DNA of 29,860 nucleotides from a virus. Numbering within the stretch: the first letter of the stretch is position 1; every line of letters starts with the position of its first letter. The stretch lies in IMG/VR virus record IMGVR_UViG_3300042991_000525, positions 1-29,860 of that record. One strand, written 5' to 3'. Shown piece by piece: positions 1-20,115 of this stretch. Made by a program: the position numbers and the translations under genes. The notes beneath the pieces are model-generated. The model was not told where the DNA came from. It worked only from the letters and a program-made list of their open reading frames with translations, and did not search any database.

Positions 1-3000
1 CGCCAGCGCACCGGGTTCGCCTCATACTGACGGACGAGGTAGTCTTTCCGGACTATCTTCTCGCCGGCCTCTGTTTTGCCCACAACCGCCGCAGGCCCCG
101 CGCCCTCCAGCGGCCGCCCCGACATCCCCCACTCGCTTTCCGCGATGCCGCGCTGCGTGTAGCGAACCCCCAGCCGCGAGTACAGAGCCGTCATCTCCGC
201 CTTGTTCAACCCCAGGCCGCCCAGCGGGTGCGTGCCCTTCTTTGCCCCCTTGATGAGCTCTTCCAGGTCCCGCAGGATCTGCTGGAACTCGCCCGCCTCA
301 GCCGGCCGCAGGAGCTTGCGCACCTGCCGCTCCTTGGCCGGAATGAACAGCGCCGCGAATTGCTCGTTGACCTCCGGAGTCATATTGTGCTGGCCGAAGC
401 GCTCGTAGATGTTCTCCAGCCAGTCGTGCATATCCTGGAATAGCGGCTTGAGCTCGGGCGCGGGAATCACGTTCTCCCGCACGTACTGCTCGACCATCTC
501 CGCGAAGCGTTCCTCGTGTTCCTCTTTCCAGTCGTGGTTCGGCACGTCCAGATAGCGCTCGAAGGCCAGGAGCTCCGCAGGATGCAGCTGCCGGCGCCAG
601 ATATGCGCGAGCTCGTGGAGAACGGTCGAGAAGTCCGTCTGCTCGCAGGCGTGGATTAGCGCCTTGCCCATCAGGTCGAAGGAGACCGCGCCCTTCCCGC
701 GCATCCAGAGGTAAGGTCCCTCCGTCACCGCCTCCAGCATCTGCGGAGTGATCCGCATGGCGTGCACAACGCGAGCTTGCTGCGCCCGCTCTTTTTCCTC
801 GACCCACTGGTCCACGACCGTCCAGCCCTCGTGCCCCGGCTCTCGCAGCATCTGCTGTAAGTACTCCAGATTCGGACCGGTTTCGACAGCTTCGCCTTCG
901 GCGTTTCGGACCTCGTACCGGTAGGCGGCCGCCGTCAAGTGCTCGCCTTCCCCCGTCATCATCTGAATGTCCGCGAAGACGTCCTCGGCCTCTCGCCAGG
1001 CTTCCTCCAGTGACTCGTAGGTACCCGGACCGTGGATCTCTTCCCACTCCCCGCTGGGCAGCTGGCCGTCCACGATAAACTCCTCGACTGTGCTCTCTGC
1101 TTCTGCTGGTGTAGTCCGTTGCCCCCACTCATCGACTGGCATTTCTATGGCTCGCGCCCTCGTATCCACCCAGCGCAGCGGCTTGCCCGCCGGCTTGCGG
1201 CGGAACATAACATCCTCGACAGCGGCGCCCCAGCTTCGGCCGTACTTGCGCATGAAGTCCGGAATCATCTCGTCATAGAGATGCTTCTTGCCGAACCCTC
1301 CGATCTTGAGTTGCTCCCCGCGCAGCACGAGCACGGGCCCCTCGACCGTGCCTTCGCGAAGCATCCGATCCGCGAGTTCGCGCCCGATGTACCGGGACAG
1401 GTTCTGGAGCGTGATCGGCTCTCCCCGCTCTCCCTCGATCTGCTGCCAGGCCGGGCCCGTTTCCGCCCGCACGACGAACAGCTGCTCTTTCTTCTGGTCC
1501 CAGCCGACTGCCTCGACGACCTCCTGCAGGCCAGGGTAGCGGTCGATCTGCTGCTGGCCCGTGGTCCAGGCCACCATGTCATAGCCTTCCTGGGTTGCCA
1601 GCTGCAGCATCCGTTTCATGGCCACCTCGTGCCAGTTCTTCTGCAGAGGAGCCGGCGGGTAGCCGGGCGTCTTTTCCCACTGCTCCCACTCTCTCAGCAG
1701 CCCCTGATAGGCCTCCAAGTCCAGCTGCTCGCCGCGGCTGTTGCGGACGACGAAATGTCCCTGCTCTATCAACCTCGCCGAGATCGAGTCAGCCTCCTGC
1801 CAATACTGCAAGAAAAGCCGCATGGCCGATGAACCTTGCAGTTCATTCTCCTGCACTGTGCCGTACTCTCGTCTGGCGAGCTCATCTGCTTCCACCACCA
1901 CGCCCAGCGGTCGCGGCGGCCTGACCCCCACGTCACGGAGACCCTGCAGCCAGTCGCTCTGTATCTCCTCCACCAGCAGCATCTTTTCGCCAGCGGGACC
2001 GATCCGGTCCGACACCCGCACATGGAAAAGCACGTTGTCCTCAGTCCAGTGCGACGTCTTATAGTCTTTGCCCGGAACGCGGATCCAGCGCTCTACCCAT
2101 GCGTTCTTGTTCATGGCGCGCACTTCTGTCTCTGTCAGCGGTTGATCGAGCCAGCCCTGCACTGCGCCGGTTTTCTCATCCACGAGCGCCAGCCGCCGGC
2201 TGTTGGCCAACAGGAAGACGATCTCCCGGTATTTCACCGCGCCGGGCAAGGTGTACTGCTCGTACCGCGCTGCCTCTGCTTGCGGATACCCCTCCGGTCT
2301 GTACTTCTCTGTAGGCCGGAGCTTCTCCTGCAACTCGAAGGTGTGGTCCGCGACGTATGCCAGAATCGACTCGGCGTCGAGCTTCGCGTCGGTATCCAGG
2401 AACTCCAGCAGGCCGGTCCACTTCATCTCGTCGTCTTTGACGCCGTTGTTTTTCAGCATCTTGAGGATCTGTCGCCCCGGCATGGGCGCCCGCATCTTGT
2501 CGACGATGATGTCCCGGCTTTTCAGCCTCCAGTCCGGCGTGTTCTGGTAGAGGACGTGCTTGTCAATCTGAATCGCGCGGTCGTCGAACACCACATAGTT
2601 GCGACCGGCGTCGTACGACCTGGCCGCGTTCGCCCCCATGAGGGTCCCGACCGGATAGGTGGTGCCATCGATGCCCGCGCGCAGCAGGAACAGGCTGGCC
2701 TCCTTGTCGCTGCCCAGGGCCCGGGAGAGGTTCGCATAGACATGCGCTCCGGTATCCTGGTGCATCGCCCGCCGCGCCTGCTCGACCTGGTAGTTGATGT
2801 TGCTCAGGGCGAACTCGACTCCACCGAGCTCCACGGTAATGTCCGCCCACTGTTTCGCGAGTTGACCGGTCGACGTGTTCCTCGCATCTCGCGCATATAG
2901 GTAGCCCTCCGACAAGATCGACGGCAGCATGTTCTCCATGTAGGTTGCGTCCAGATCGCCCTTCACGCGGAACGGTGGAATCTTGTCGTCGTACTTGCGA

Positions 3001-6000
3001 ATGACGCCCGCGGCCTTCTTGATCGTGACCAGCCTGGCCGCTTCGAGCCGCTGGAGCTCTGCCTCCGTGGGCGGCCGGCGGAAGGTCTCAATACCCGTCC
3101 CCGGCTCCTTCTGTGCCTGTTTCTCGATCTTCTGCCAGACTTCCTCGGGCACCAGACCGTACCAGTCCAGATAGTAGTACTCGCCAGGTTGTTTACCGGC
3201 GTGGAGGGTTACCTCGTACAGATTGCGCGTTTTCGTTCTCCCGACCGCGAGGGCCTCCGGGTTGGTCGCCAGGCAGCTGAGGACCTGCAGCAGGTTTCTC
3301 ACATCTGTTTCCAGCCCAGTGACCACACTCTGAATGTTGGCAACGTAGGCTTCCATCGTCGCGTTGGGCCGCCGCTTGAGTATATCCTGCGCGGCTGCCA
3401 GCGCCTGCCTTTCGCGACACCAGTGCTCTTGCGTCTCCGGCACAATGCCGCTGAGCCTCTCGTGGAGTTGCATGGTCTCGGCCCCCGGCTCGCCCTTCGG
3501 GGCCCTGTTCCACATATCGATGTAGTAGCCGGCGCGAAATGGCAACTCGTGATACTTCATCTCGAAGGGGTTGCCCTTGCTGTCCGTGCCCTTCACCACC
3601 GGCTGAGGTACCTCGGCCAACGACTGTGCGTAGTCTCTGGCTACTGACTCCAGGTTGGAGAAGTAAAAGCCCCAGCCGAAGGCTGCCGAGCCCTGGCCGG
3701 TCCCGATATGCCGCGTGTCGAATCTTGTATGCGTTTTCCCGCCGCCGTGGAAGACCGGTCCAATCTGCCGGAAGGTGTAGACCCCGGGCCGCACGTTGTT
3801 GAACAGCCTGCGCAGCACTTCCCTCGTCGGGTTCGGGACCGTCGGGGACCCGAAGGTCCGACCGTTCTCGTCGACGAAGTCGATGTACGCCGCGCGGCTG
3901 GCCTGTTGTCCCTCGACCCACCTGTCTCCGCGGCTTTTCTGGTAGCCGACGGCGAAACCCACCGCCAAGGCCTCAGCCTGGCGCTCAGTGGGCGTCCCCA
4001 TGATCTCGATCGCCAGCACCCTAAAGTCGACGCGGATTGCGCCACTGCGCTTCATGAACTCGTACTTGTCACCCTTGCCCCGCAGGTTCAGGGGGTTGCT
4101 GCCGCCGGTGTCCAGATCGTTGTGGTCGACACCGCGTTGTCCACCCATGTAATCAGTGACGCCCGCTTTCGGTTTCCAGGTCCCGCCCGGGGCCTTTTCG
4201 TAGTCGTTCAAAGACTGGTGGCGGCCAGAGAAGTCCAGCATGGTGCCATCAGGCAGCACGTAGCCGGCTTCCAGCGGGTTGTGGGTAATGCCGAAGAACC
4301 TGATCGCTCGCTGGCCGGCTGCACGCATGGACAAGGCGCTGGGCGGCCCCTGGAAGAGGGCCCGCGGGCCCCGTTGCCCGAAGAACTTGCGGATCCGCTT
4401 CTCGCTGAGCTCCTCTTTCGGGATCTTCTCGAAGGCGACCGGCTCGCCGATTTCGCTCGTGATCTCCAGCAGCGCCTCGCGGCCTACCGCCAGATCCATG
4501 ATCGCCCGTAGCTGTTCGACCGTCGGCTTGCCGATGATCTCGAAGGAGTTGAAGTCGAAGTTGTAGCGAATCGCCCCACACCGCTCCATCCACTCGGTCA
4601 TCGTGCGTGAGCCACCAGTCCTGGGATCCCCGAGCAGCTGGTAAATGCCCAGCGAGTGCATATCTCCAGGATCCCCCGGAGAGCGGATCTTCCGGCCATC
4701 GCTGAGGATCCACTTGGTCTCTTGTGGCGCCTCGGTGGTCCCCGCCACCTCGGCCGCGAAGTCGTTCATCCGCTGCAACTCTTGTCCGCTGAACGCCGAG
4801 AGACTCCCATCCGGCGGCGCCTCGTTGGTAATGACGTCACGCTGGAAACTGTGGTGCAGGTACTCGTCTGAAGACAGGCCCAGGCTGGAGGCGCGCGCCG
4901 CGACGATCGAGGCACTGGCTTCGATCTTGTAGTCGCTCAGCTGCGGCGCGTACCGCTTGAGCCCGTCCTTGTAACGCTGGATCCACGGCTCCGGCATATT
5001 GGCGGAGTCCGCGCCCGCGCGGTACCAGGGCACGAACTCGTCCTCGCTCATGAAGATGCCGTTGATGATCCGTCCCACGTCGCGCACGTCCTGCCTCACC
5101 CCGTACTGGGCCGCGAGCTGGTCGAAGTCCTCAGCTGCGACGTCCGAGTAGATGTGCCCTTCCTTGGTCTGCACGGCGAGGATCCCCATGCCGCGGCCTT
5201 CCTGTTCGCTGCGATCGTAGGCCTCCTGGGGCGTGAGCCGCTCGACCTCGGCCTCTGCAGGTGCCATCTCGGCGGCGACCGCCGGCTTCTGCTCCAGTGC
5301 CGCGCCAGGTGCGCCCTTCTCGGCCCTCCTCTGGAGGATGGTGCGCACGGCCGGCTCGCTCGGGGGAATGTAGGCCACCGGCTTGCCGTCCGCCTCGTCA
5401 TCCACCACAACCCTGCCGGAGCCCGCGCCGAACAGCCCAGCACCAACGTCCACGGCGTTCGGTGGCCCGTATTGCTGAATGAGCTCCCTGGCCCGCGCCG
5501 GATCCGTGACGATTTCCACGCTCGCCAGATCCGCTCCTGCTTCCTCCACGAGCGTCGCGACGGCCTCGGGAAGGACCTGCGGCTGGGTGATCTGCTTCAC
5601 CAGCGCCTCGTCGACGACCGCTGGCGCCGCGGGCGCCACTTCTGCTGCAGCGGGTGCTGCGGCCGCCATGGGTGCGGGTTGGGCAGCGGGTACCGCGCGC
5701 GCCGCTTCCGGCATCCGCACTTGGGCGGCTCCCGGGGCGACCTCGGGTGCCACGGCTCGCAGCTGGACCCGCCCTCTCTGGGTTTTCACCCCCTCGACGC
5801 CGATTCCCAGCAGCGTCGAGGCGACCTGCAACGGGGCGAAGCCCTTCACGGCCTGCAGGACCTGGGAAGCGACGTCCGGCAGGATCTCCCGCCAGGTGTG
5901 CTCGAACTCCGTGCCCTTGGTCCAGTTGTTCAGACCGACGGCCATCTCCTGCATGAAGGCGGAGATCAGCCCCTGCACACCTTCCTCGTACAGCGTTTCC

Positions 6001-7172
6001 TTGGCCAGAGATCCCACCGTGCCCTTGCCCTTGGTCAGAACCCCCTGCATGATCTTCCGCAGCATGTTCGGATTCTGCAGCACCTTGCGCGTGGCGAGCT
6101 TGGCCGACTGCTGCCAGGCTTTGCTGCCCACCAATCGCATCATGGGCGCAGCGACCTCGCTCATCTGCATGAACTCGAAGGGAGCCTGCAGCACTCCTGA
6201 CGTGAGGCCTACAACCCCCGCGATTGTCCGATCCAGCCCCTGCTCGTACAGCCCCCAGGCCTCGATCGCGCCGCTGGTCAGAGCCATCTGCGTCATGCCA
6301 GCGATGCGTGAGCCGTACGTTGCCCCGGCAGCGGCGCCAGCGGGACCACCGATCAGGTACCCCGCACCGTAACCGGCTCCCGCTCCCGCAAACGTGAAAC
6401 CCATCCCGACGAGGATCTGCGGCGCGATCGCCGCGGCGGAAACCAGCGCGTCCTCCAGCACACTCATGTTCTGCAGGCCCATGACTTCCTTGAAGATCCG
6501 CATGGCTTGCGCCTTCTGCATCAGCGGTTGAGCGGCCGCCGCTTTCGTGGCGAGTTCTGCTAGCTGCCGACTGGGAGCAATCTGCGCTCGCAAGATTGGC
6601 GGCAGCTCCTGGATCTGTTTTTCGCTGGGTCGTGTAGGGCTTGGCCGCAGGATCTCCGCGATCCCCAACTCGGTCATCCGGCTGCCGGTGTCCTCCGTCA
6701 GGCTCTCCCAGGCCTTGTCCTCTGGCGTCATTTGATCCAGCAGCCCCCGGATGTACTGCTCCATCTCCGGCGTGTACTTCGAGTCGTCCATGAAGAATTG
6801 CCAGATCGGCGCCGTGGCGTACAGCGTGAGCATCCCACCCTTGAACCGGGTGCCCATCTTCTTGAGCACTTCCAGCACGTTTGCGCCAGGTCCGCCATCT
6901 GCCTCCAGGTAGACTTCCGCAGCGTCGTAGATGTCCTGTGGCAACTTCCCGAGTTCCGCCGCGCGCAGCAGCGAATAGACCGTCCAGGCCTGCTGCTCTT
7001 CGCGCTTGTCCTCCGGCATCGTCTCCAGGAGGTCTTTCATCGTCTTCGCCCAGTCCTCGGGGATCTCCAGGCGCATCGGGTTTGACAGGCCTGGATCCGG
7101 CGGGCGCTCCTGTTCCAGGGTCAGGGGATTGGAGAGGCCAAGGTCGGAGAAGTACTTGTCCTCGTCGCTCAC
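1..7172 (-). CDS. Giant polyvalent virion protein in the T7 gp16 position, partial (C-terminus beyond left edge)
   Basis: The minus frame opening with GTG at 7172 (GTGA overlap with the preceding gene) stays open to base 1, giving 2390 codons without a stop. Residues about 244-290 are a Gly/Ala-rich hydrophobic stretch, and about 465-510 an Ala/Pro linker. A duplicated DG...GAIR...PT..Q domain lies at about 820-895 and 970-1075. An ADP-ribosyltransferase-like module starts at H1142 (FHGG, then IGTGQGS, GWGFYF) and ends with NYVVFDD (1525-1531). EIQSDW (1736-1741), NWHEVAMKRM (from 1846) and a GFGKKHLYDE segment (about 1956) are typical of large polyvalent phage proteins. HELAH (2186-2190) followed by E2221/E2225 is a zinc metallopeptidase signature. 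It follows gp14- and gp15-like genes, where T7 encodes its 1318-aa ejected gp16, so delivery into the host with the DNA is inferred. No lytic transglycosylase motif was seen, but one could lie beyond the edge. Confidence 0.85.
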   Translation of the reverse strand, partial: MSDEDKYFSDLGLSNPLTLEQERPPDPGLSNPMRLEIPEDWAKTMKDLLETMPEDKREEQQAWTVYSLLRAAELGKLPQDIYDAAEVYLEADGGPGANVLEVLKKMGTRFKGGMLTLYATAPIWQFFMDDSKYTPEMEQYIRGLLDQMTPEDKAWESLTEDTGSRMTELGIAEILRPSPTRPSEKQIQELPPILRAQIAPSRQLAELATKAAAAQPLMQKAQAMRIFKEVMGLQNMSVLEDALVSAAAIAPQILVGMGFTFAGAGAGYGAGYLIGGPAGAAAGATYGSRIAGMTQMALTSGAIEAWGLYEQGLDRTIAGVVGLTSGVLQAPFEFMQMSEVAAPMMRLVGSKAWQQSAKLATRKVLQNPNMLRKIMQGVLTKGKGTVGSLAKETLYEEGVQGLISAFMQEMAVGLNNWTKGTEFEHTWREILPDVASQVLQAVKGFAPLQVASTLLGIGVEGVKTQRGRVQLRAVAPEVAPGAAQVRMPEAARAVPAAQPAPMAAAAPAAAEVAPAAPAVVDEALVKQITQPQVLPEAVATLVEEAGADLASVEIVTDPARARELIQQYGPPNAVDVGAGLFGAGSGRVVVDDEADGKPVAYIPPSEPAVRTILQRRAEKGAPGAALEQKPAVAAEMAPAEAEVERLTPQEAYDRSEQEGRGMGILAVQTKEGHIYSDVAAEDFDQLAAQYGVRQDVRDVGRIINGIFMSEDEFVPWYRAGADSANMPEPWIQRYKDGLKRYAPQLSDYKIEASASIVAARASSLGLSSDEYLHHSFQRDVITNEAPPDGSLSAFSGQELQRMNDFAAEVAGTTEAPQETKWILSDGRKIRSPGDPGDMHSLGIYQLLGDPRTGGSRTMTEWMERCGAIRYNFDFNSFEIIGKPTVEQLRAIMDLAVGREALLEITSEIGEPVAFEKIPKEELSEKRIRKFFGQRGPRALFQGPPSALSMRAAGQRAIRFFGITHNPLEAGYVLPDGTMLDFSGRHQSLNDYEKAPGGTWKPKAGVTDYMGGQRGVDHNDLDTGGSNPLNLRGKGDKYEFMKRSGAIRVDFRVLAIEIMGTPTERQAEALAVGFAVGYQKSRGDRWVEGQQASRAAYIDFVDENGRTFGSPTVPNPTREVLRRLFNNVRPGVYTFRQIGPVFHGGGKTHTRFDTRHIGTGQGSAAFGWGFYFSNLESVARDYAQSLAEVPQPVVKGTDSKGNPFEMKYHELPFRAGYYIDMWNRAPKGEPGAETMQLHERLSGIVPETQEHWCRERQALAAAQDILKRRPNATMEAYVANIQSVVTGLETDVRNLLQVLSCLATNPEALAVGRTKTRNLYEVTLHAGKQPGEYYYLDWYGLVPEEVWQKIEKQAQKEPGTGIETFRRPPTEAELQRLEAARLVTIKKAAGVIRKYDDKIPPFRVKGDLDATYMENMLPSILSEGYLYARDARNTSTGQLAKQWADITVELGGVEFALSNINYQVEQARRAMHQDTGAHVYANLSRALGSDKEASLFLLRAGIDGTTYPVGTLMGANAARSYDAGRNYVVFDDRAIQIDKHVLYQNTPDWRLKSRDIIVDKMRAPMPGRQILKMLKNNGVKDDEMKWTGLLEFLDTDAKLDAESILAYVADHTFELQEKLRPTEKYRPEGYPQAEAARYEQYTLPGAVKYREIVFLLANSRRLALVDEKTGAVQGWLDQPLTETEVRAMNKNAWVERWIRVPGKDYKTSHWTEDNVLFHVRVSDRIGPAGEKMLLVEEIQSDWLQGLRDVGVRPPRPLGVVVEADELARREYGTVQENELQGSSAMRLFLQYWQEADSISARLIEQGHFVVRNSRGEQLDLEAYQGLLREWEQWEKTPGYPPAPLQKNWHEVAMKRMLQLATQEGYDMVAWTTGQQQIDRYPGLQEVVEAVGWDQKKEQLFVVRAETGPAWQQIEGERGEPITLQNLSRYIGRELADRMLREGTVEGPVLVLRGEQLKIGGFGKKHLYDEMIPDFMRKYGRSWGAAVEDVMFRRKPAGKPLRWVDTRARAIEMPVDEWGQRTTPAEAESTVEEFIVDGQLPSGEWEEIHGPGTYESLEEAWREAEDVFADIQMMTGEGEHLTAAAYRYEVRNAEGEAVETGPNLEYLQQMLREPGHEGWTVVDQWVEEKERAQQARVVHAMRITPQMLEAVTEGPYLWMRGKGAVSFDLMGKALIHACEQTDFSTVLHELAHIWRRQLHPAELLAFERYLDVPNHDWKEEHEERFAEMVEQYVRENVIPAPELKPLFQDMHDWLENIYERFGQHNMTPEVNEQFAALFIPAKERQVRKLLRPAEAGEFQQILRDLEELIKGAKKGTHPLGGLGLNKAEMTALYSRLGVRYTQRGIAESEWGMSGRPLEGAGPAAVVGKTEAGEKIVRKDYLVRQYEANPVRW

Positions 7173-9553
7173 TGCCGTTTCCTCATCGCCTGCGCAAAGC
7201 GAGTCAACTCATCGATCGGAAGGAGCTCGACCTGCTTGGTGAGCTTGTTGAAGACCCAGGCCATGCCTTCTTTCGCCGGCATGTTATTGTACAACTCCCA
7301 GACCTTCACGCGCCGGCCATCCGGTTCCAGAAAGTAGTTATTCATACTGGCGATCAGGTCGCTTTCCGCCCTGTCCAGCGCCACTTTGGCTCGCCCGGTT
7401 TCTTCGTACAGCGCCTCGCTCGTCCGCCGCACTCTTTCAGCGGGCGCCGTCTCCGGTCCCGCGCCGAAAGCTGGCAGCTCGGCACCCGGCTCGAAGCTCG
7501 GCCGCGGCATCAGTTCCGGTGTTCCCAGACGCTCGTAGTACTCGTAGTCGGTTTCCAGGCGCCTCTGCCTGCTCAGTGTGTCGCGCACCATGTTGCGCTG
7601 CGCCGGGTAGAGAATCTGCAGGGCTGTCTGCGTCGTGTCGTCCGCCATCGGCGCCGCCGCGTCGTACTCCTCCAGCGCCCGCGACTGCTGCTGCAGGAGT
7701 TGCGCCTGCTCTCGGATCAGGTCCTCGACGACCCTTCTCCGTGTTTCCACTTTCAGCCGATCCTCGATCTCTTGGAGCTTGTTCCCGTAGAACGTGGAGA
7801 TCGTCGTGCGCCCGTTCTCGATCGACGCCATCTTCTTCTTGTACGCATCGCTGCGCAGCTCCACGATCCGGCGGTCGATCTTCGCCATGTAATCCTTGAC
7901 GTCGGCGTGCTTGATCCGCTGGATCTCCAGCACCGCATCCACCCCCGCGTTGTTCAGGATGTAGTTTTTCAGTTCCTGCAGCTGCTCGACGTCATGGCTC
8001 TCGCGGTTGCCCTCCAGCACCCCCTGCACGTGTTTCCAGTATTCCTCTCCCGTCGGCTGTTTCGCCAGACTGGTCAGGCGGTTGTCCTTGGCCGCCTTCT
8101 CCCGCCTGCTCTCCAGTTGTTCCATTTGCTCGCGGAAGTAGGAGAGTTTCTTCTGCCCGTCCTCGCCGAAGTCCCCGTCTTTGACGAACTTCTCGAACCG
8201 CCGCACGTCCGACCACTGAGCTGCGGGCAGTGGTCCCAGGAACTTGCCCTCCAACTCGACGACGGCAGCATCCCAGTCCGTCGCATCTCCCGGCGCCTTT
8301 GCCTCGTCGATCAACAGCTGCGCCTTGCGCACGTCGTAGTGGTCCTGCATCGACCAAGCCAACTCTGGTTTCGCCTTGAGCGCCTCTAGCTCGGCCTGCG
8401 CCTCTTGCTTCTTGCCCAGCTTCACCAGCTGCGTAATGTAGTCGAACCCCTCTTTCTTGACCTCCGTGGCCACTTCTATCTGCGTTTCGACTTTGTCGTC
8501 GTACAGGTCTTTCACGTACTTGCGACTTACGTCGTCCAGGAAGAACTTGGAGCGGTCGTTCAGGTCGAAGATATTCGACGGATTGAGCTCGCCGCTCTCG
8601 ATCATCTGTTCGGCTCGCTTGCGGTCCTCTTCGATTTTCTGCTGGTTCGCTGCGAAGGCATAGGCCTTTCGGTCTTTGACTTCTTCGGCGAGTTCCTCGG
8701 CGCCCTTTGCGGCCTGCTCCGCCGTGATCTCGTAGAGCTTCTGGCTTTGCTCGCTCATTAGGAAGTCCGGGCCCGCCTCTCCCAGTCGGCGCGCCCGTTC
8801 CATCGCCGCATCGAGGCGGATCGCCGGTACCACAGCAGCCAGCAGCTTCTCCCCCTCCGCCTCATTCCAGACGCGCGCCGAGACGGCGCTGCGGATGATC
8901 TGCTCCGCCATCTGCGGGTTGTGCTGCTCTGCTGCCAGACGCAGCGCCCTAGCGAAGCGCGCCTCTGCCACTTTCGCATCCCGATCCAGGCCGCCGGCGC
9001 GGAACTCCGCATAGGCCTTGCTGTAGTACCCGGACAGCCACTGCTCGAACTTCGCCCCCACGCTGGCATCGCTGAATTTCTTCTTGCGCCGATCCAGGAT
9101 GTCCGCGTACAGCTCGTCGCTGCGGTCCGTATAGTACTGGGCGTACTGGCTTATTTGAGGGAGCTGCTCGATTTCGCTCAGTCCCTCCAGGGCGCCAGGC
9201 AACTGATCCTCCGGCACCGTGGTCTGATCGAGGCCTGTTTTCAGCTCGACGAACTCCTTGACCGTCTCCATGGCCTCGGATTCCAGCTGCGCCTGGTCCT
9301 GGGCTTTCTTGACTTCCTCCTGTTGCTTGCCGAAATGGATCGCCAACTCCAGCCCGGCCTGCGCGATGTCGAAGATTCCGCGCGCGATCCCCTGCCTTTT
9401 ACGCGCGCCCGCCTCTTCCAGGCGAATATCCGAAATCGTGCGCTCGTACTTGAACCTCGACGCGATTCGCTCCCCGAAGCGTTCATACACTGGGGTTGTC
9501 GTCGGGATCGGCGTCCTGGGAATCGGTTCGTACTTCGGTATTTTGATGGGCAT
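7169..9553 (-). CDS. Internal virion (ejection) protein, T7 gp15-like
   Basis: This 794-aa protein is highly charged and almost wholly helical in appearance, with long Glu/Lys/Gln/Ala runs and no signal peptide or enzyme motif. The N-terminus is Pro-rich (MPIKIPKYEPIPRTPIP), and residues about 75-100 and 280-330 look like coiled coil. T7 gp15 is 747 aa and lies between gp14 and gp16; this gene has the same neighbours and a similar length. In T7-like phages this protein stacks in the capsid core and is ejected to form part of the trans-envelope DNA channel. The family assignment rests on position, size and composition, not on a recognised motif. Its stop overlaps the GTG of the next gene by 3 bases, and 3 bases separate it from the gene upstream. 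Confidence 0.7.
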   Translation of the reverse strand: MPIKIPKYEPIPRTPIPTTTPVYERFGERIASRFKYERTISDIRLEEAGARKRQGIARGIFDIAQAGLELAIHFGKQQEEVKKAQDQAQLESEAMETVKEFVELKTGLDQTTVPEDQLPGALEGLSEIEQLPQISQYAQYYTDRSDELYADILDRRKKKFSDASVGAKFEQWLSGYYSKAYAEFRAGGLDRDAKVAEARFARALRLAAEQHNPQMAEQIIRSAVSARVWNEAEGEKLLAAVVPAIRLDAAMERARRLGEAGPDFLMSEQSQKLYEITAEQAAKGAEELAEEVKDRKAYAFAANQQKIEEDRKRAEQMIESGELNPSNIFDLNDRSKFFLDDVSRKYVKDLYDDKVETQIEVATEVKKEGFDYITQLVKLGKKQEAQAELEALKAKPELAWSMQDHYDVRKAQLLIDEAKAPGDATDWDAAVVELEGKFLGPLPAAQWSDVRRFEKFVKDGDFGEDGQKKLSYFREQMEQLESRREKAAKDNRLTSLAKQPTGEEYWKHVQGVLEGNRESHDVEQLQELKNYILNNAGVDAVLEIQRIKHADVKDYMAKIDRRIVELRSDAYKKKMASIENGRTTISTFYGNKLQEIEDRLKVETRRRVVEDLIREQAQLLQQQSRALEEYDAAAPMADDTTQTALQILYPAQRNMVRDTLSRQRRLETDYEYYERLGTPELMPRPSFEPGAELPAFGAGPETAPAERVRRTSEALYEETGRAKVALDRAESDLIASMNNYFLEPDGRRVKVWELYNNMPAKEGMAWVFNKLTKQVELLPIDELTRFAQAMRKRQ

Positions 9554-9556
9554 GTC

Positions 9557-10135
9557 CTACCTCATTCCGGCGAAACCGCCCCTGAACATATTCATCGTCT
9601 TGATAGGGCTCGGCAGCGTGCTGGGAGAGCCCAGCAAGCTGCTGGGCAAGGCGACCTCGGTGTTGCTCCGCAGGATTCCCAGCTGCTCCTGCACGCCGAC
9701 GATCTCCGCCTGGATCCTCCCCATCTCCGCCGCGTACCAGCTCTGCTTGTAGGCCACGTCCTCCTGTGTCTGCTTGAGCGTCCCGGTCATGACCTGCAGC
9801 GGGCTGCCGGCACCGAGTTCCGCGCCGCCCACGGCAAAGCCGGCCCGTTGAGTTCCCACCGTCTCGTAGCCGGCTTTGCCGATCCTGCCGTACTCGTACA
9901 GAGACTGGCCGCCCAGGCTAGCCGCCTGCTCCTGCAGCGACTGCACCTCGGCTTCTTTCTCGGCGATCGCCAAATCGCGCTGTTCCTGGCGGTACTCTTC
10001 CTCCGCGGCGGCCGTTTCCTCCGCCCGCTCTTCCTCTTTGACCGCCGACACGATCCCCGCCACGGCGCTCGTTGTTGCCGCCACGGCGCCGACCACCGCA
10101 GCGATCCCCACCAGAATTGGTACAGCTGGAGGCAT
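9557..10135 (-). CDS. Internal virion protein, T7 gp14-like
   Basis: The product is 192 aa; T7 gp14 is 196 aa. Residues 3-32 form an Ala/Val-rich hydrophobic segment that could insert in a membrane (VPILVGIAAVVGAVAATTSA and onward). Residues about 33-75 are a Glu/Ala-rich coiled coil, and the remainder is Gly-rich and Gln-rich. In T7, gp14 is ejected first and places the channel in the outer membrane. The hydrophobic-then-coiled-coil layout is common in podovirus proteins at this position. ATG at 10135 overlaps the preceding stop as ATGA, and the next gene begins 3 bases after this stop. The function is inferred from order, length and composition. Confidence 0.65.
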   Translation of the reverse strand: MPPAVPILVGIAAVVGAVAATTSAVAGIVSAVKEEERAEETAAAEEEYRQEQRDLAIAEKEAEVQSLQEQAASLGGQSLYEYGRIGKAGYETVGTQRAGFAVGGAELGAGSPLQVMTGTLKQTQEDVAYKQSWYAAEMGRIQAEIVGVQEQLGILRSNTEVALPSSLLGSPSTLPSPIKTMNMFRGGFAGMR

Positions 10136-10584
10136 CAGTTTACCCTCGCATACATAACGACGTTCTCTCCCGCAGGGCCAGCCCTACGCATGACCCCCTC
10201 GGTCTTGAATCCGAGCTTTTCCACGAAATGTCTGCCGGCACCCCAATCTTCCGAGCTCATAGCCTGAACCCGATGCAGTCTCAACCTGCGGGTGAAGTAC
10301 TCCAGCGCATCCTTCACCTTGCGGAAGGCGTCGTACGGATACTGCCGGATCTCCTGGTCAAGCACCATCCAGGCCTCGGCCGTTCCCGGCCAATACAGCG
10401 CCAGGCCGATGCACATGACCGGCTTCTCTCCGTGGAAATAGGTGTAGCTGGGTCCGAGCGTGGCGAGCCCGTCGAAAATCTTGCCGAACGTCGACACCTT
10501 GGCCATCGTGAGCTCATCGAAGGGTCTGAGCTTGAGAATGTCGCCGGGCTGGTATTTCTCGAACCACAGACTCACGTGTGTCAC
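10135..10584 (-). CDS. GNAT-fold protein, T7 gp13-like (DUF2833 type)
   Basis: This 149-aa protein has features of the GNAT acetyltransferase fold: a ...GEKPVMCIGLALYW... strand pair, a helix near SSEDWGAGRHFVEKLGF, and the typical closing strand LGFKTEGVMRR...VMYARVN. T7 gp13 (138 aa) occupies the same position between gp12 and gp14 and belongs to a GNAT-like family. The start is GTG at 10584 in a GTGA overlap with the nozzle gene; the frame is open further upstream but only inside that gene. The canonical acetyl-CoA loop (Q/RxxGxG/A) is not obvious, so it may be a structural or assembly protein that kept the fold rather than an active enzyme. Confidence 0.65.
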   Translation of the reverse strand: MTHVSLWFEKYQPGDILKLRPFDELTMAKVSTFGKIFDGLATLGPSYTYFHGEKPVMCIGLALYWPGTAEAWMVLDQEIRQYPYDAFRKVKDALEYFTRRLRLHRVQAMSSEDWGAGRHFVEKLGFKTEGVMRRAGPAGENVVMYARVN

Positions 10585-12980
10585 AACTCCTTGGTCTCCA
10601 GGAAAGGCATTACGCTGAGAATCGTCTGCGGCTGCGGCTGATCTTGCACGATCATCAAGAAACCGTCCGCATCCCAGGTGCCTTGCACCGACAGTTTCTT
10701 GAAGCCGCTGAATACGGGAGGCACCGCGTCCATCGGATCCTCTGGGTTGCGCCACTCGAACTCGGTGAGGCTGGTTTCATCCGGCCCCACCTTGGCCCCC
10801 AGGCTCTTGTAGAAGCCCACCAGCACGCTTTTGATCCGTTTCGTTTTGCCCAAACCCGGCCCCTGGTCGCCCCCGGCGTTCTGGCGCATCAGACGCATGA
10901 TCCCGGTGTAGGGCAGCCCGGCGTGGATCCTGTTCGCCCACACCTGCAGGCTGATCACGCCACCGCTGACCGTGCGCCGCGGATGATTGGCTCCGTCGCA
11001 GACCACGTCGACCTCTTCTCCGTTCAAGTGAGAGAAGCCAGACACGGACTCCTCGAAACGCTGCGCGGTGCCCCCCGCTGTCCAGGTCCCGTATAGATCC
11101 GTCACGATCGGGTAGCCCGCGGCGCCGGTGGCCGTGTTGGTGCCGTCGCTGATGTTCTCGCCATCGGTGAAACTGGTGGATCGGAGCCGGCACAGGTACT
11201 CGGTGGAGCTGATCTTCTGGAAGACCTGGCAGGTGCAGCCACTCAGTGCGCCCGTGAGCGTCGCGCCCGGAGCGAAATCCGCGGGGCTGGGCGCCGAGGC
11301 CACCTTGAGGTTGAAGAACGTGGCGTCGATCCCGTCGGAGCCCTCCTCGTTGTACAGCTGGAAGGTGTGAGTGCTCGCGCCTTTTACCGTGTAGATTTTG
11401 CCGTTGAGCTCGGTCATGCCCTCCATCCCCTCGATCCACACGTGTTGATCGTTGGCAAAGCCGTGCGAACTCGCCGTGATAACCACCGGATCCGCCTTGG
11501 TGGCTCCGCTGATCGTTTTGGCCGTACCGTAGTCCACCGTCAGGCCGGCGTCTACGAAGAACACGTCCCGCTGGTCAGCTCCCCAGTTGCGCGCTTTCAT
11601 GTAGCAGATCTGGCGGGCCGTGCCCAGAACGAAAGAGACCCAAAGCTCGTCCTCCGTGGTGCCGCTGATGACGGCGACGCTCTCGACCAGCTTCTCTGTC
11701 ACCGCGCGCGTCCATCCCGCCATGCTCACCGAAGGATCGTAGCCGAAGGCCAGCAGCGCGCCGTCGGTTCTCAGCACCCAGAGGATCGGAGAGGGTACGT
11801 TCTGCGCGGCCATTTCAGAGACGCCACAAGCCACGATATGAGGGGCCAGCGCCGTCAGGTCTGGCGCGACGTAGCCGTTGCGTTCATAGGTGAAGTACAA
11901 CTCCCGCAGCTGACTGCCCAGCTTCGGCACGAACAGGCAGCGGCTGCCGAACGGCTGGGCCTGCAGGTTTGCCGAACCCTGGCTTCCCTGCTGCTTGATC
12001 TGAAAGTTCTCCGCGTAGAAAGCGCCGTCGCCCCCGGTAAAGATGAACTCACCGCCAGAGGCCCCAACGAGAAGATCGGACCCGGCGACCAGCCAGCGAA
12101 TCGTCTGCGCTTTCTCGGAAGCGATCCGGAAACTCCAGGGATCCGAAGGCCCAGTCGCCGGCGTGACATTCGGGTAGCCCGCCACGGCCGGCGCCGTGTT
12201 GGTTCCGTCGGTGATCGTTTCGCCGTACCGGTAGTTGCCGCTCAGTGTCTTCACCACGTAGAGCAGCGCGGTGATCTTGGTCACCACGAGGCTCGTCGCG
12301 CCCGACGTCCCTCCGGTCAGCGTCGCCCCGGCCGCAAAGTCCGCGGGCGCCGCCGCCTGGCCGAGTTCCATCAGCCAGGTCTGCCAGGTGTTATAGTTGC
12401 CCACATACGAGCCCCAGACCATCTGCGGTTCATTCACTGTTGCGGCTACCACCAGCCTGCCCTGCCAGAAGGCGCCGCAGCTGGGATAGTTGCCCGAGCT
12501 GTTGAACGGTGCCCCCAGGGCGGCCCCGATGGTCCAGGTGAAGTCGTCGGTGGTCCGCTGAATGACCTGCGTGGCGTACGACGGGTGAAAGACGTACAGC
12601 AGGTCATCGTCCTGCGCGAATTTCAGCTCTCCGAGCACCGCGGTGGGCCAGGGCGTGACGATCTCCACCGGCGTCCCAGGAGGATTCTCGATTCTGGCGT
12701 GCGCCGTGTAGATCCGCGCATAGAGGTTGCCAAGCTCCAGCACATAATTTTGGAGTGACCCGCGCTCATAGGCTTTCAGTCGTATGCGTACACCGGCGGT
12801 TTTTGACGCATTGAGATAGTATGTTCCCGGTCGAAAGGCCATGGCTCCCTGCGGCAACGCCAGGTAGTTTTCGCAGCGGGACAGACCGCGCGCGTAGGCG
12901 TCCATATCCACGCGCCCGGCCAGGAGCTCCCCGAGTTCGCCGAAGAGCCAGTTGTTGAACAGAGGCGTGGCCTGTCCCAT
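10581..12980 (-). CDS. Tail nozzle protein, T7 gp12 (tail tubular B)-like, with inserted modules
   Basis: At 799 aa it matches T7 gp12 (794 aa). The N-terminus (NNWLFGELGELLAGRVDMDA, then ...YARGLSRCENYLALPQGA) is the recognisable start of podovirus nozzle proteins, which open with a statement that the tail protein reaches the adaptor ring. Residues 211-272 and 565-627 are two copies of a DFA.GATLTG module. Residues 488-556 resemble the E1 FCCH-like beta domain often annotated in phage tail proteins (VVITASSHGFAND...GMTELNGKIYTV). The protein would form the hexameric tube at the tail tip, attached to the gp11-like adaptor. It is followed by gp13-, gp14- and gp15-like genes, as in T7. It begins with ATG at 12980, one base after the preceding stop. 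Confidence 0.85.
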   Translation of the reverse strand: MGQATPLFNNWLFGELGELLAGRVDMDAYARGLSRCENYLALPQGAMAFRPGTYYLNASKTAGVRIRLKAYERGSLQNYVLELGNLYARIYTAHARIENPPGTPVEIVTPWPTAVLGELKFAQDDDLLYVFHPSYATQVIQRTTDDFTWTIGAALGAPFNSSGNYPSCGAFWQGRLVVAATVNEPQMVWGSYVGNYNTWQTWLMELGQAAAPADFAAGATLTGGTSGATSLVVTKITALLYVVKTLSGNYRYGETITDGTNTAPAVAGYPNVTPATGPSDPWSFRIASEKAQTIRWLVAGSDLLVGASGGEFIFTGGDGAFYAENFQIKQQGSQGSANLQAQPFGSRCLFVPKLGSQLRELYFTYERNGYVAPDLTALAPHIVACGVSEMAAQNVPSPILWVLRTDGALLAFGYDPSVSMAGWTRAVTEKLVESVAVISGTTEDELWVSFVLGTARQICYMKARNWGADQRDVFFVDAGLTVDYGTAKTISGATKADPVVITASSHGFANDQHVWIEGMEGMTELNGKIYTVKGASTHTFQLYNEEGSDGIDATFFNLKVASAPSPADFAPGATLTGALSGCTCQVFQKISSTEYLCRLRSTSFTDGENISDGTNTATGAAGYPIVTDLYGTWTAGGTAQRFEESVSGFSHLNGEEVDVVCDGANHPRRTVSGGVISLQVWANRIHAGLPYTGIMRLMRQNAGGDQGPGLGKTKRIKSVLVGFYKSLGAKVGPDETSLTEFEWRNPEDPMDAVPPVFSGFKKLSVQGTWDADGFLMIVQDQPQPQTILSVMPFLETKEL
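11100..11288 (-). repeat. GATLTG module, copy 2 in nozzle gene
   Basis: Nozzle residues 565-627 read SPADFAPGATLTG, then SG.T..VF.K, ending DGENISDGTNTA..AAGYPIV. It lies immediately after the FCCH-like domain. It shares this pattern with residues 211-272 of the same protein and with residues 24-85 of the 149-aa protein at 19666-20115. Confidence 0.75.
12165..12350 (-). repeat. GATLTG module, copy 1 in nozzle gene
   Basis: Nozzle residues 211-272 read APADFAAGATLTGGTSGATS, then VV.K, G.Y..GETITDGTN and AGYPNV. The short plus-strand core gggtagcccgc, encoding AGYP, is shared by all three copies. Confidence 0.75.
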
Positions 12981-13266: not shown

Positions 13267-13454
13267 TTCGTTCTATCCAGTCTCCGCTCTCGATCTATCA
13301 CCAGCAGATCCGCCAGGCGCCACCGCCGGCGCCCCGCCACTGCCTCGCCCAGACAACTCCAGCCATCGCACCACCACTGATCCTCTCCCAGGACTCCGTC
13401 ACAGAACAACTCGTCGCACGCCCACACATCCGGGCCGAAGAACGTGTCACTCAC
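13257..13454 (-). CDS. Small Trp/Cys-rich protein of unknown function
   Basis: This 65-aa product is unusually rich in Trp and Cys in its first half (MSDTFFGPDVWACDELFCDG, then EDQWWCDGWSCLGE), with a basic second half (RRRWRLADLLVIDRERRLDR). GTG at 13454 overlaps the methyltransferase stop as GTGA, and its own end overlaps the next gene by 10 bases. Tight coupling on both sides supports it being real. Four Cys could bind metal, but the spacing is not a standard zinc finger. No function can be given. Confidence 0.5.
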   Translation of the reverse strand: MSDTFFGPDVWACDELFCDGVLGEDQWWCDGWSCLGEAVAGRRRWRLADLLVIDRERRLDRTKWL

Positions 13455-14068
13455 CTACCCACCCGCTTGAACAGCCGCACCTTGATCTCCTGTGCGACGT
13501 TGATATAGTGCTTCAGCACCATCGAGCGAAACTCCTCGTTGCGCTGCCCGATGTTCAGCGGTGGGCCAGCGTCGGCAGTGTACTCGATCCCCGACTGGTC
13601 GAAATCGCAGCTCACAGGATAGTGGTCCAGCTTGGTCGCCACCCTCCAGGGTTTGTTGAAGTAGATGAACGTCGCATCACAGATCGGAGGCCACTCGTGT
13701 GTCGGGTCCTGCACAGCCCCCATCGAGGAGTAGTACGGGCAGACGATGAAGACCTCGGCGTCCGGCCGCAGCACCCGCCACAGCTCGTCCATGAAGGCGA
13801 AGCGCAGCTTGGCTGGTACGTGCTCGAAGAAGTGGAGCATCCTGGCGGCGTCCACCGAGCTGTCCTTGAACGGCCAGGGGAAGGTGAAGAGGTCGTGCAC
13901 GACGTCGGCCCCCTCCCATTTGTCCACTACCTTCCAGCCCTCCTCCTTGTGCTGCCCCCCGCCCAGATCCAGGCGCAGGATCGGCCGCTCCAGCTTCGGC
14001 GTCACCCGCTGCTTCGGCGCTCTCGTCTGCCTCGCCTTTTTCCCGCTCACCGTTCCCTCCTTCACCAT
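13451..14068 (-). CDS. Class I SAM-dependent methyltransferase
   Basis: This 205-aa protein carries the class I methyltransferase core: motif I LRLDLGGG (residues about 31-38), an acidic second strand with VVDKWEGADVVHDL, a PWPFKDSSVDAA loop, FFEHVP as motif IV, and the LRPDAEVFIVCPYY strand. This is the Methyltransf_11-like pattern often found beside glycosyltransferases, where it methylates sugars or small glycoconjugates. ATG at 14068 overlaps the glycosyltransferase stop. An alternative GTG at 14050 has a better-placed AAGGAGG before it, so the protein may be 199 aa. The target is unknown; partnership with the neighbouring glycosyltransferase is inferred from the overlap. Confidence 0.8.
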   Translation of the reverse strand: MVKEGTVSGKKARQTRAPKQRVTPKLERPILRLDLGGGQHKEEGWKVVDKWEGADVVHDLFTFPWPFKDSSVDAARMLHFFEHVPAKLRFAFMDELWRVLRPDAEVFIVCPYYSSMGAVQDPTHEWPPICDATFIYFNKPWRVATKLDHYPVSCDFDQSGIEYTADAGPPLNIGQRNEEFRSMVLKHYINVAQEIKVRLFKRVGR

Positions 14069-14787
14069 ACAATGTCCTCTTGCTCAGAAAAATGCCCGAC
14101 TTTCACCCGCGTATCGCACCCGATCCTGTACCCCAGGCCAACGGCCTTCTCGAAGAAATACAGGTCTTGCGTCCACATGCCCATCCCCCGCCCCTCCTCC
14201 ATCCCCTGCACGGTCTTGAACCAGGGCTTGGTCAGGCGGGCGTCCTTGAAGATGTCCAGCTTGAACAGGGTGAAGCCCATGCCCAGGCCGTTGCACCGCT
14301 GGAGGCATTCCTGCTTCGGCGGCTGCGGCCAGAAGTTCAGCGGGACGAGCTCCGGATCCCCGTAGATCATCGGTTGGCCCAACTCCCCTTTGGTCCAGTA
14401 AAGGCCACCCACCACATCGACCTGATCCATGTTCTCCAGGAGCTTAATCAAGCCGTCCGGTGGAGGGATATTGTCGTTCTCCAGCGTCAGAATGTACTTG
14501 AAGGTGTTTAGCCCCGGGTGCTCCACGATCTGCTGGAAAGTCTGATTATAGGCCTCGCCGATCTCCATGTTGACCACCGGCAGCCGGTAGAACTTCTGAT
14601 TCATCGGCGGCATCAGGTTAAACCAGGAATTGGCGACGCGCAGGTGGATATGCCCGTCCTTAGAGGGCATGATGCAGATCGTCGAGGAGTCGCGGTACAC
14701 GCCCTGCTTGTTCAACCGCGTGGTTTGCTGCTGCAGGTCCAGGTTGAGGCGGCCCATCGACTCGTCGAGAAGGATCGACTTGCTCAC
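14062..14787 (-). CDS. GT-A fold glycosyltransferase-like protein
   Basis: The product is 241 aa from GTG at 14787, chosen because AAGGAG stands 8 bases before it and it overlaps the micro-ORF stop as GTGA; another GTG lies three codons upstream. Residues in the middle read ILTLENDNIPPPDGLIKLLE, where ENDN takes the place of the GT-A DXD metal and nucleotide-sugar site. DVVGGLYW follows, then CNGLGMGFTLFKLDIF, which fits the acceptor-side Gly-rich strand, then WTQDLYFFEKA and VKVGHF with the His that often closes the active site. This is a family 2-like layout. Donor and acceptor cannot be read from the sequence. Its place between fibre and nozzle genes suggests it modifies a virion or surface component. 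Confidence 0.75.
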   Translation of the reverse strand: MSKSILLDESMGRLNLDLQQQTTRLNKQGVYRDSSTICIMPSKDGHIHLRVANSWFNLMPPMNQKFYRLPVVNMEIGEAYNQTFQQIVEHPGLNTFKYILTLENDNIPPPDGLIKLLENMDQVDVVGGLYWTKGELGQPMIYGDPELVPLNFWPQPPKQECLQRCNGLGMGFTLFKLDIFKDARLTKPWFKTVQGMEEGRGMGMWTQDLYFFEKAVGLGYRIGCDTRVKVGHFSEQEDIVW

Positions 14788-14864
14788 AACAGCCACTCCT
14801 TGTGATCCACGGTCTTCCGCAGCGAGTCCTCGAGAGACTGGCCTCCTGTCAGCAGGATTCTCAC
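14784..14864 (-). CDS. Possible 26-aa micro-ORF coupled to both neighbours
   Basis: GTG at 14864 overlaps the stop of the FnIII-like gene as GTGA. The frame reads 26 codons (MRILLTGGQSLEDSLRKTVD, then HKEWLL) and ends in a TGA that overlaps the GTG of the glycosyltransferase, again as GTGA. Such double coupling exactly fills the gap and would be unlikely by chance. The codons for HKEW supply the AAGGAG used by the next gene. It could be a real peptide or simply a translational bridge that keeps ribosomes on the message. Confidence 0.4.
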   Translation of the reverse strand: MRILLTGGQSLEDSLRKTVDHKEWLL

Positions 14865-15202
14865 AACTTGATCCTCAACCTACCAGGAGCACCCGGAATG
14901 CTCCTCAACACGAAAGGGTCCGTCACCTCGTCGCTCCAGATGTAGTCCGACGCAAGGCCTGCCGCCAGCGATCGCACGCCTACCACCCAGTCCCCTTTGG
15001 GCAGGCTGGAGATGGTGTACTCCAGGGCGGCGGTGGTCCCCAGGACCTGCCAGCCCGTGCGGTCGGCCTTCGCCACGACCACCTCGTAGGTCTCAGCACC
15101 TTCCCCTGCGTCCCACGCGACAGTGACCGGGAACTGCGTGTGGATCGTCAGGCCCAGCAGCAGGGGCAGGACCACCAGCAAACCGATCAGCTTTTTCATC
15201 AT
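14861..15202 (-). CDS. Secreted fibronectin type III-like protein
   Basis: The 113-aa product starts with a clear signal peptide (MMKKLIGLLVVLPLLLGLTI). The rest has the fibronectin III pattern: VTVAWDAGEGAETYEVVVAK, then GTTAALEYTISSLPKGDWVV, then ...GVRSLA, ending in short strands. Two ATGs lie in tandem (15202 and 15199) in an ATGATGA overlap with the fibre stop. A single small FnIII domain behind a signal sequence could coat the host surface, help the fibre, or act in the periplasm; the context next to the fibre favours surface interaction but does not prove it. No lipobox Cys is seen. Confidence 0.7.
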   Translation of the reverse strand: MMKKLIGLLVVLPLLLGLTIHTQFPVTVAWDAGEGAETYEVVVAKADRTGWQVLGTTAALEYTISSLPKGDWVVGVRSLAAGLASDYIWSDEVTDPFVLRSIPGAPGRLRIKL

Positions 15203-19665: not shown

Positions 19666-20115
19666 TTACGCCGGTCCCCCGTCCCTGGGCTGGTTCTCCC
19701 CCAGTGCGATGAGCGCGCGAGCGATCAATGCCGCCTCGCGCTTGGTGAGTTTGTACGAGCTATTCAGCAGAGCTCGCTGCTGAATGCTGTCCAGCTTGTT
19801 GCGGATGAACGAGGGCAGTGAGGAGTCGTCTGCGACTAGCCCCACCACGTTCTCGTTGCTGAGCACTGGGTAGCCCGCCCCGCAGTCCCGCGAGTTGGTC
19901 CCGTCACTGATGATTTCCCCATCGGTGTAGGCCCCGTTGCGGTCCTTGATCAGGTAGACCGTGGAGCTCAGCTTGGCCACCACCACGGAGGTTTTGCCGG
20001 ACGTGCCCCCGGTGAGCGTGCCGCCCACCGTATAGTCGGCTGGCGCCGGCCCTGCGTCGAGCGTCAGTTTTTCCAGCCCGATCAGAGCGTCCCACGCCGC
20101 GTGTGTTGATTTCAT
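19666..20115 (-). CDS. Unknown virion-region protein carrying the GATLTG module
   Basis: This 149-aa protein has a beta-rich module at residues 24-85 (PADYTVGGTLTGGTSGKTSV, later DGEIISDGTNS and AGYP) and a helical C-terminus (LDSIQQRALLNSSYKLTKRE). The module is shared with two places in the nozzle protein at 10581-12980. ATG at 20115 has a strong site (GAGGAGGG, 4 bases away). It is the first gene after a 67-base spacer with a strong hairpin. A joint structural role with the nozzle, such as a shared carbohydrate-facing or docking domain, is conceivable but unproven. Confidence 0.6.
   Translation of the reverse strand: MKSTHAAWDALIGLEKLTLDAGPAPADYTVGGTLTGGTSGKTSVVVAKLSSTVYLIKDRNGAYTDGEIISDGTNSRDCGAGYPVLSNENVVGLVADDSSLPSFIRNKLDSIQQRALLNSSYKLTKREAALIARALIALGENQPRDGGPA
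19861..20046 (-). repeat. GATLTG module, copy in the 149-aa gene
   Basis: Residues 24-85 of the 149-aa protein follow the same pattern as the two modules in the nozzle gene: PAD...G.TLTGGTSG, V.K, G.Y.DGE.ISDGTN and AGYP. Confidence 0.75.

Follow-up and report, generated by a model that had tools for sequence, protein, structure and literature searches.

The internal virion proteins gp14, gp15 and gp16 of phage T7 are ejected and form a channel across the cell envelope, with gp16 as its inner-membrane part (PMC8954989, PMC12633501). Homologues of gp16 in T7-like phages share an average identity of about 20% (PMC8954989). Phage N4 ejects its vRNAP, a protein of 3,500 residues. The N-terminal domain of the vRNAP inserts into the membrane, its C-terminal part is large and helical, and it contains an HExxH region (PMC12633501). 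A further class of phage proteins, termed polyvalent, combines unrelated enzyme domains in one chain. According to PMC5512222, to which all statements on this class refer, such proteins are predicted to be injected together with the DNA, a zincin metallopeptidase is their hub domain, and their ADP-ribosyltransferases (ARTs) carry a His in strand 1, a Tyr in strand 2 and an Asp in strand 5. Both polyvalent proteins and giant ejected proteins such as N4 vRNAP are already published; what is added here is the location of a polyvalent protein in the gp16 slot. The locus joins two subjects that stood unjoined in the literature searched: polyvalent effector proteins, studied mostly through domain analysis, and the short-tailed phages' DNA ejectosome, for which structures exist from T7 and N4. 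We found no systematic link of the gp16 slot to polyvalent cargo in that literature, most subscription journals lying outside it; such a link may be known elsewhere.

Gene order and extent of the giant reading frame

The window analysed here is the entire 29,860-base virus record IMGVR_UViG_3300042991_000525. In reading order it encodes terminase, portal, scaffold, capsid, tail tubular protein A (phrog_394), several tail-region genes, tail tubular protein B, a gp13-like, a gp14-like and a gp15-position protein, and finally a giant ORF. The order of gp13, gp14 (196 aa), gp15 (747 aa) and gp16 (1318 aa) in T7 is the same. The tail tubular protein B-like gene (10581-12980, minus strand; phrog_376, 5e-134), which later served as the anchor of our survey, is followed on the same strand by the gene for a gp13-like protein of up to 206 aa (10135-10755), whose longest start overlaps the tail gene. 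This protein matches phrog_4177 (1.3e-18) and phrog_308 “internal virion protein” (3.6e-5) and is 28% identical to gp37 of the pelagiphage HTVC028P, annotated as a putative acetyltransferase. The gp14-like internal virion protein (192 aa, 9557-10135, minus strand) matches phrog_418 “internal virion protein” with 1.2e-6. For the next protein (794 aa, 7169-9553, minus strand) we detected no relative, whether in the PDB, in T7 gp15 or at the gp15 position of 140 other loci, and it is therefore labelled by its place and by its size, which is similar to that of T7 gp15. An earlier note on this DNA had placed gp13-, gp14- and gp15-like genes upstream of the giant ORF; the first two assignments agree with the PHROG matches, while the third is one of position and size.

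The giant ORF (3-7172, minus strand) directly follows these genes and is the largest of the module, as is gp16 in T7. It differs from T7 gp16 in length (at least 2390 residues against 1318), in its effector-type domains and in showing no SLT transglycosylase in the part present (residues 1-2390, Pfam). No match to T7 gp16 was obtained by BLASTP at E ≤ 1, and hhalign gave a probability of 0.1%. We therefore use “gp16” for the slot and the presumed role, with no implication of descent. A pairwise profile comparison of the gp14 and gp15 proteins of the window with T7 gp14 and gp15 likewise gave no match, and neither the N-terminus of the giant protein nor the gp15-position protein has relatives in the sets searched. 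Membership in an ejectosome is for these reasons assigned from gene position and the PHROG matches.

The frame starts with a GTG at 7172 that overlaps the TGA stop of the upstream gene (GTGA), and runs for 2390 codons down to position 3 without a stop. The earlier statement of at least 2390 open codons is thereby upheld. Since the window is the complete virus record, the ORF is cut by the assembly and lacks its own stop. It is coding over its whole length: GC content at codon positions 1, 2 and 3 is 0.67, 0.43 and 0.82 overall, resembling the portal, terminase and capsid genes of the window, and the ranking third > first > second holds in 23 of 24 blocks of 100 codons, the exception being the Ala/Pro-rich block 501-600. 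A stop or frameshift had been named as a possible refutation; the codon-phase signal is steady and gives no sign of a frame change. That the contig end falls inside the gene might suggest an assembly artefact or a chance ORF. We regard this as a negligible possibility given the phase signal throughout and the existence of complete relatives of similar build; second-order Markov shuffling of the window, repeated 50 times, gave no stop-free run above 636 codons. The 36 bases at the start of the window, searched against viral contigs, retrieved no overlapping contig carrying the missing end. Complete slot proteins of relatives stop about 1,100 residues past their metallopeptidase, so the full protein is likely to have near 3,300 residues, with some 1,000-1,100 C-terminal residues missing here.

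Two further genes lie between the tail genes: one (13451-14068) is methyltransferase-like (Methyltransf_11, 2e-5) and the other (14062-14796) looks glycosyltransferase-like by eye; the pair may possibly serve glycan modification. A domain of the pattern ADF..GATLTGG.SG...DG..ISDGTN...AGYP occurs three times in two proteins, twice in the tail tubular B protein (10581-12980) and once in 19666-20115. At the DNA level the copies are 67-78% alike in places, and both copies of the tail tubular B protein are missing from two relatives; the domain is apparently a mobile insert. A tandem repeat of about 121-123 nt lies at 15980-16223 within a large fibre-like gene (15202-17772).

Domain composition of the giant protein

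All window coordinates in this section are on the minus strand, within the giant gene. The N-terminal 470 residues have no detectable relatives, and comparison with an LPD22-containing N-terminal profile was not significant. They include a Gly/Ala-rich hydrophobic stretch (residues ~235-345; 6138-6470) with a Kyte-Doolittle peak of 1.7 at residues 242-261, a possible inner-membrane segment as judged from the sequence. A crude scan gives this one hydrophobic segment here and none in T7 gp16 itself. An Ala/Pro-rich linker (residues ~480-545; 5538-5735) precedes two copies of a domain that we call DG...GAIR (residues ~808-900, 4473-4751, and ~961-1085, 3918-4292). The copies match each other in BLASTP with 2e-8, a similar stretch occurs once in phage MD07, and no Pfam model matches the domain.

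An ART domain with a long insert follows (residues ~1138-1545; 2538-3761). ART-PolyVal is the sole Pfam domain seen in the giant protein; on the excised segment it scores 2e-6 and 29.0 bits. Its scores, 24.8-29.0 bits overall, do not reach the curated cut-off of 31.2, and we therefore term the domain ART-like and divergent. Comparison with relatives extended it to about 400 residues. In alignments with MD07 and the loci L045 and L234, residues H1142, Y1170 and D1530 fit the H-Y-D signature, and the terminal strand reads NYVVFDD where L234 has NYVVFAD. An AlphaFold2 model of this domain was discarded (pLDDT 39, from only 8 aligned sequences), its low quality probably reflecting the lack of relatives.

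Next comes a short KDDEMKW module (residues ~1556-1620; 2313-2507), a stretch of which is 57% identical to locus L002 and which in relatives, too, stands before the EIQSDW module. The latter spans residues 1632-1992 (1197-2279), with the EIQSDW motif itself at residue 1736. In an alignment of 78 sequences H, R, E, Q, S, D, W, G and Y are invariant. Its AlphaFold2 model reaches a pLDDT of 80.9. Against the PDB this model found no confident match (best E 0.06); the weak matches are mostly GNAT acetyltransferases, which we take as a lead only. Among predicted viral structures 27 entries fall below 1e-3, all of them phage proteins where named, and several are annotated as ART-PolyVal, “Large polyvalent protein associated domain” or LT_GEWL. 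Structure prediction by domain, as had been proposed, gave a good model of the EIQSDW module and failed for the ART. The EIQSDW module lacks Pfam coverage in any protein scanned. It is very common in IMG/VR viral contigs, with at least 600 stretches fitting the pattern and at least 514 confirmed; one phage ORF of 4695 aa (L010:4169-18256) holds two EIQSDW modules, a metallopeptidase and a GGDEF domain.

The last domain in the available part is a zincin-like metallopeptidase (residues 2157-2272; 357-704), related to that of locus L030 (BLASTP 9e-9). It has the sequence HELAH at residues 2186-2190, with H2186, E2187 and H2190, and a distal Glu, E2221. The HExxH and the distal Glu are invariant in an alignment of 15 sequences, and they fit the pattern of such zincins, with HExxH in one helix and Glu in the next. 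The window was the seed of the profiles built in this study, and its own E-values against them are left out of the evidence. Sequence searches found no solved relative for the metallopeptidase, for the C-terminal module of the relatives or for the whole giant protein, and NCBIfam and PADLOC gave no match.

The ART, EIQSDW and metallopeptidase signatures read from the sequence by the earlier note are hence all present, the ART with its H-Y-D residues intact and its ART-PolyVal score below the Pfam cut-off. With a zincin metallopeptidase and, subject to that same cut-off, an ART, the giant protein has two unrelated enzymatic domains in one polypeptide, is phage-encoded and stands among virion genes. 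It resembles the polyvalent proteins of PMC5512222 in combining an H-Y-D ART with a zincin; the EIQSDW module and the doubled DG...GAIR domain, neither with a Pfam match, and the location in a T7-type gp16 slot set it apart.

The slot behind tail tubular protein B in related phages

A tblastn search of 50,697 phage records with the giant protein returned no more than four matches, all of them partial. The best match to the portal is in Rhodobacteraceae phage LS06-2018-MD07 (MD07, OP947163.1), whose gene order is identical. MD07 has a giant protein with metallopeptidase and ART in the same slot, 33% identical to ours over residues 961-1186 including the DG...GAIR domain. It differs by a methyltransferase and DUF7178, by a metallopeptidase that precedes the ART, and in that no EIQSDW module was found in it. 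The MD07 slot gene is annotated “methyltransferase” and spans the start of the record. A stretch of about 150 bases is apparently doubled at the join of this circular record (loci L003/L005), splitting the giant gene into the “methyltransferase” ORF and a 500-aa “hypothetical protein”; with the duplication read once, the gene would comprise about 3,510 codons.

Two slot proteins from IMG/VR are complete, that of L030 with 2576 aa and that of L151 with 2195 aa, and they have a C-terminal module in common. L030 shows the order LPD22-ART-KDD-EIQSDW-metallopeptidase-C-terminal module, its ART, KDD, EIQSDW and metallopeptidase domains standing in the same order as in the window. In L141, a locus with a related capsid, the slot protein starts with an SLT transglycosylase (2.8e-8), as T7 gp16 does. 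HTVC028P has in the same slot gp34 with KDD and EIQSDW modules; in contrast to the window it uses two genes, gp34 and gp33 (954 and 985 aa), with no match to ART or metallopeptidase. Here the EIQSDW protein is followed by one which its depositors name “putative internal virion protein”. Many loci are HTVC028P-like: a smaller slot gene contains the EIQSDW module, and another large gene comes after it.

We surveyed the slot, defined as the second ORF of at least 450 aa after tail tubular B, in loci collected mainly through the tail tubular B gene and not through the domains; five loci (L030, L046, L048, L055, L086) entered by way of the EIQSDW search. In 218 loci with tail tubular B, 48 ORFs matched the ART, EIQSDW, KDD, metallopeptidase or C-terminal profiles and 43 of these were the slot ORF, although many of the loci are mutually related and the counts are not independent. 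Among the five exceptions, two ORFs that adjoin the slot are short or split. Second ORFs of at least 450 aa after tail tubular B hold 365 of 2,892 kb. Of the 99 loci whose downstream sequence extends for 7 kb or more, 19 have an ORF of at least 1500 aa there. Pfam searches in 22 large slot proteins found LPD22 in 10, ART-PolyVal in 8 and PBECR (PBECR3/5) RNases in up to 3, with methyltransferase and nucleotidyltransferase domains as single cases.

The survey bears on the idea that the giant protein is a late intracellular factor which is not packaged and lies beside the ejection genes by chance. We consider this very unlikely in view of the slot specificity over the 218 loci, the SLT-fused relative in L141 and the GTGA overlap with the gp15-position gene. 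The earlier note had described the protein as replacing gp16. Its slot and polyvalent nature are borne out; for “replaces” we prefer an enlarged gp16-slot protein, because L141 keeps an N-terminal SLT domain and the overall layout resembles that of N4 vRNAP.

Proposed delivery of the giant protein and its cargo

Like the giant ORF of the window, which follows presumed tunnel genes, that of N4 (gp50, the vRNAP) comes directly after the genes for the tunnel proteins gp52 and gp51. Both proteins show a membrane N-terminal domain (a candidate one here), cargo, an HExxH (residue 2228 in N4, 2186 here) and a large C-terminal part, which we expect beyond the contig end. They differ in the ART and EIQSDW modules of the window protein and in the lack of an RNA polymerase Pfam domain in its residues 1-2390. 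Direct comparison with N4 gp50 gave no match with E below 0.05. The metallopeptidase profile matches the HExxH region of N4 vRNAP weakly (E 5e-4 in a single-protein search, hhalign probability 12%), while the C-terminal module of the relatives was not significant against either N4 vRNAP or T7 gp16. The resemblance of slot proteins to the N4 layout and the match at the HExxH are our reasons for an ejected protein that engages the inner membrane.

Taken with the position of the gene and the recurrence of these domains in the slot, this makes it quite probable that the product of the giant ORF serves a T7-like podovirus as its large ejection protein, a positional counterpart of gp16 enlarged to a polyvalent protein that delivers effectors. 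Packaging and ejection would follow the T7 and N4 precedents; catalysis by the ART and the peptidase, and their targets, are likewise presumed. Inside the head it would be packed alongside the gp14- and gp15-like proteins, and during infection these two would build an outer-membrane pore and a periplasmic tunnel, as known for T7. The giant protein would go next, its N-terminal hydrophobic part engaging the inner membrane, and the middle part with the two DG...GAIR copies, the ART and the EIQSDW module would reach the cytoplasm. There the ART might modify a host protein early in infection, and the metallopeptidase might cut its own chain, freeing the effector domains, or cut a host protein.

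A packaged and ejected but purely structural protein, with enzyme-like domains that have decayed or serve maturation in the head, for instance a peptidase trimming the chain, appears unlikely to us. Iyer et al. (PMC5512222) propose self-processing inside the head as a role of such metallopeptidases, and ART-PolyVal stays under its cut-off; yet the H-Y-D residues of the ART and the HExxH and Glu of the peptidase are intact, and the cargo families differ among relatives as effectors do.

The effector-delivering ejection protein may also represent a wider principle. We hold it evenly balanced whether the T7-type gp16 slot is a general cargo bay, an ejection frame with swapped effectors in which the same protein delivers DNA and effectors. 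The frame would consist of the N-terminal part, the zincin peptidase and the C-terminal part of about 1,100 residues, N4 vRNAP being similar in outline, and the effectors would comprise ART, EIQSDW module, RNase, methyltransferase and nucleotidyltransferase. If so, many T7-like phages inject customised sets of enzymes as infection begins, and the gp16 slot indicates where to seek injected enzymes. Passage of the giant protein through the tail and release of cargo by a built-in peptidase become testable.

The earlier note had further raised a possible counter-defence system, a narrower form of effector delivery in which the domains, once ejected, would inactivate an anti-phage system of the host. 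We consider this proposal doubtful; we found no antirestriction domain, and PADLOC gave no match. It has a precedent in DarB-type proteins of phage P1, which counter restriction, and PMC5512222 lists anti-restriction among the themes of polyvalent proteins. By the same source, the ART could equally well have RNA polymerase or translation as its target, in the manner of T4 Alt.
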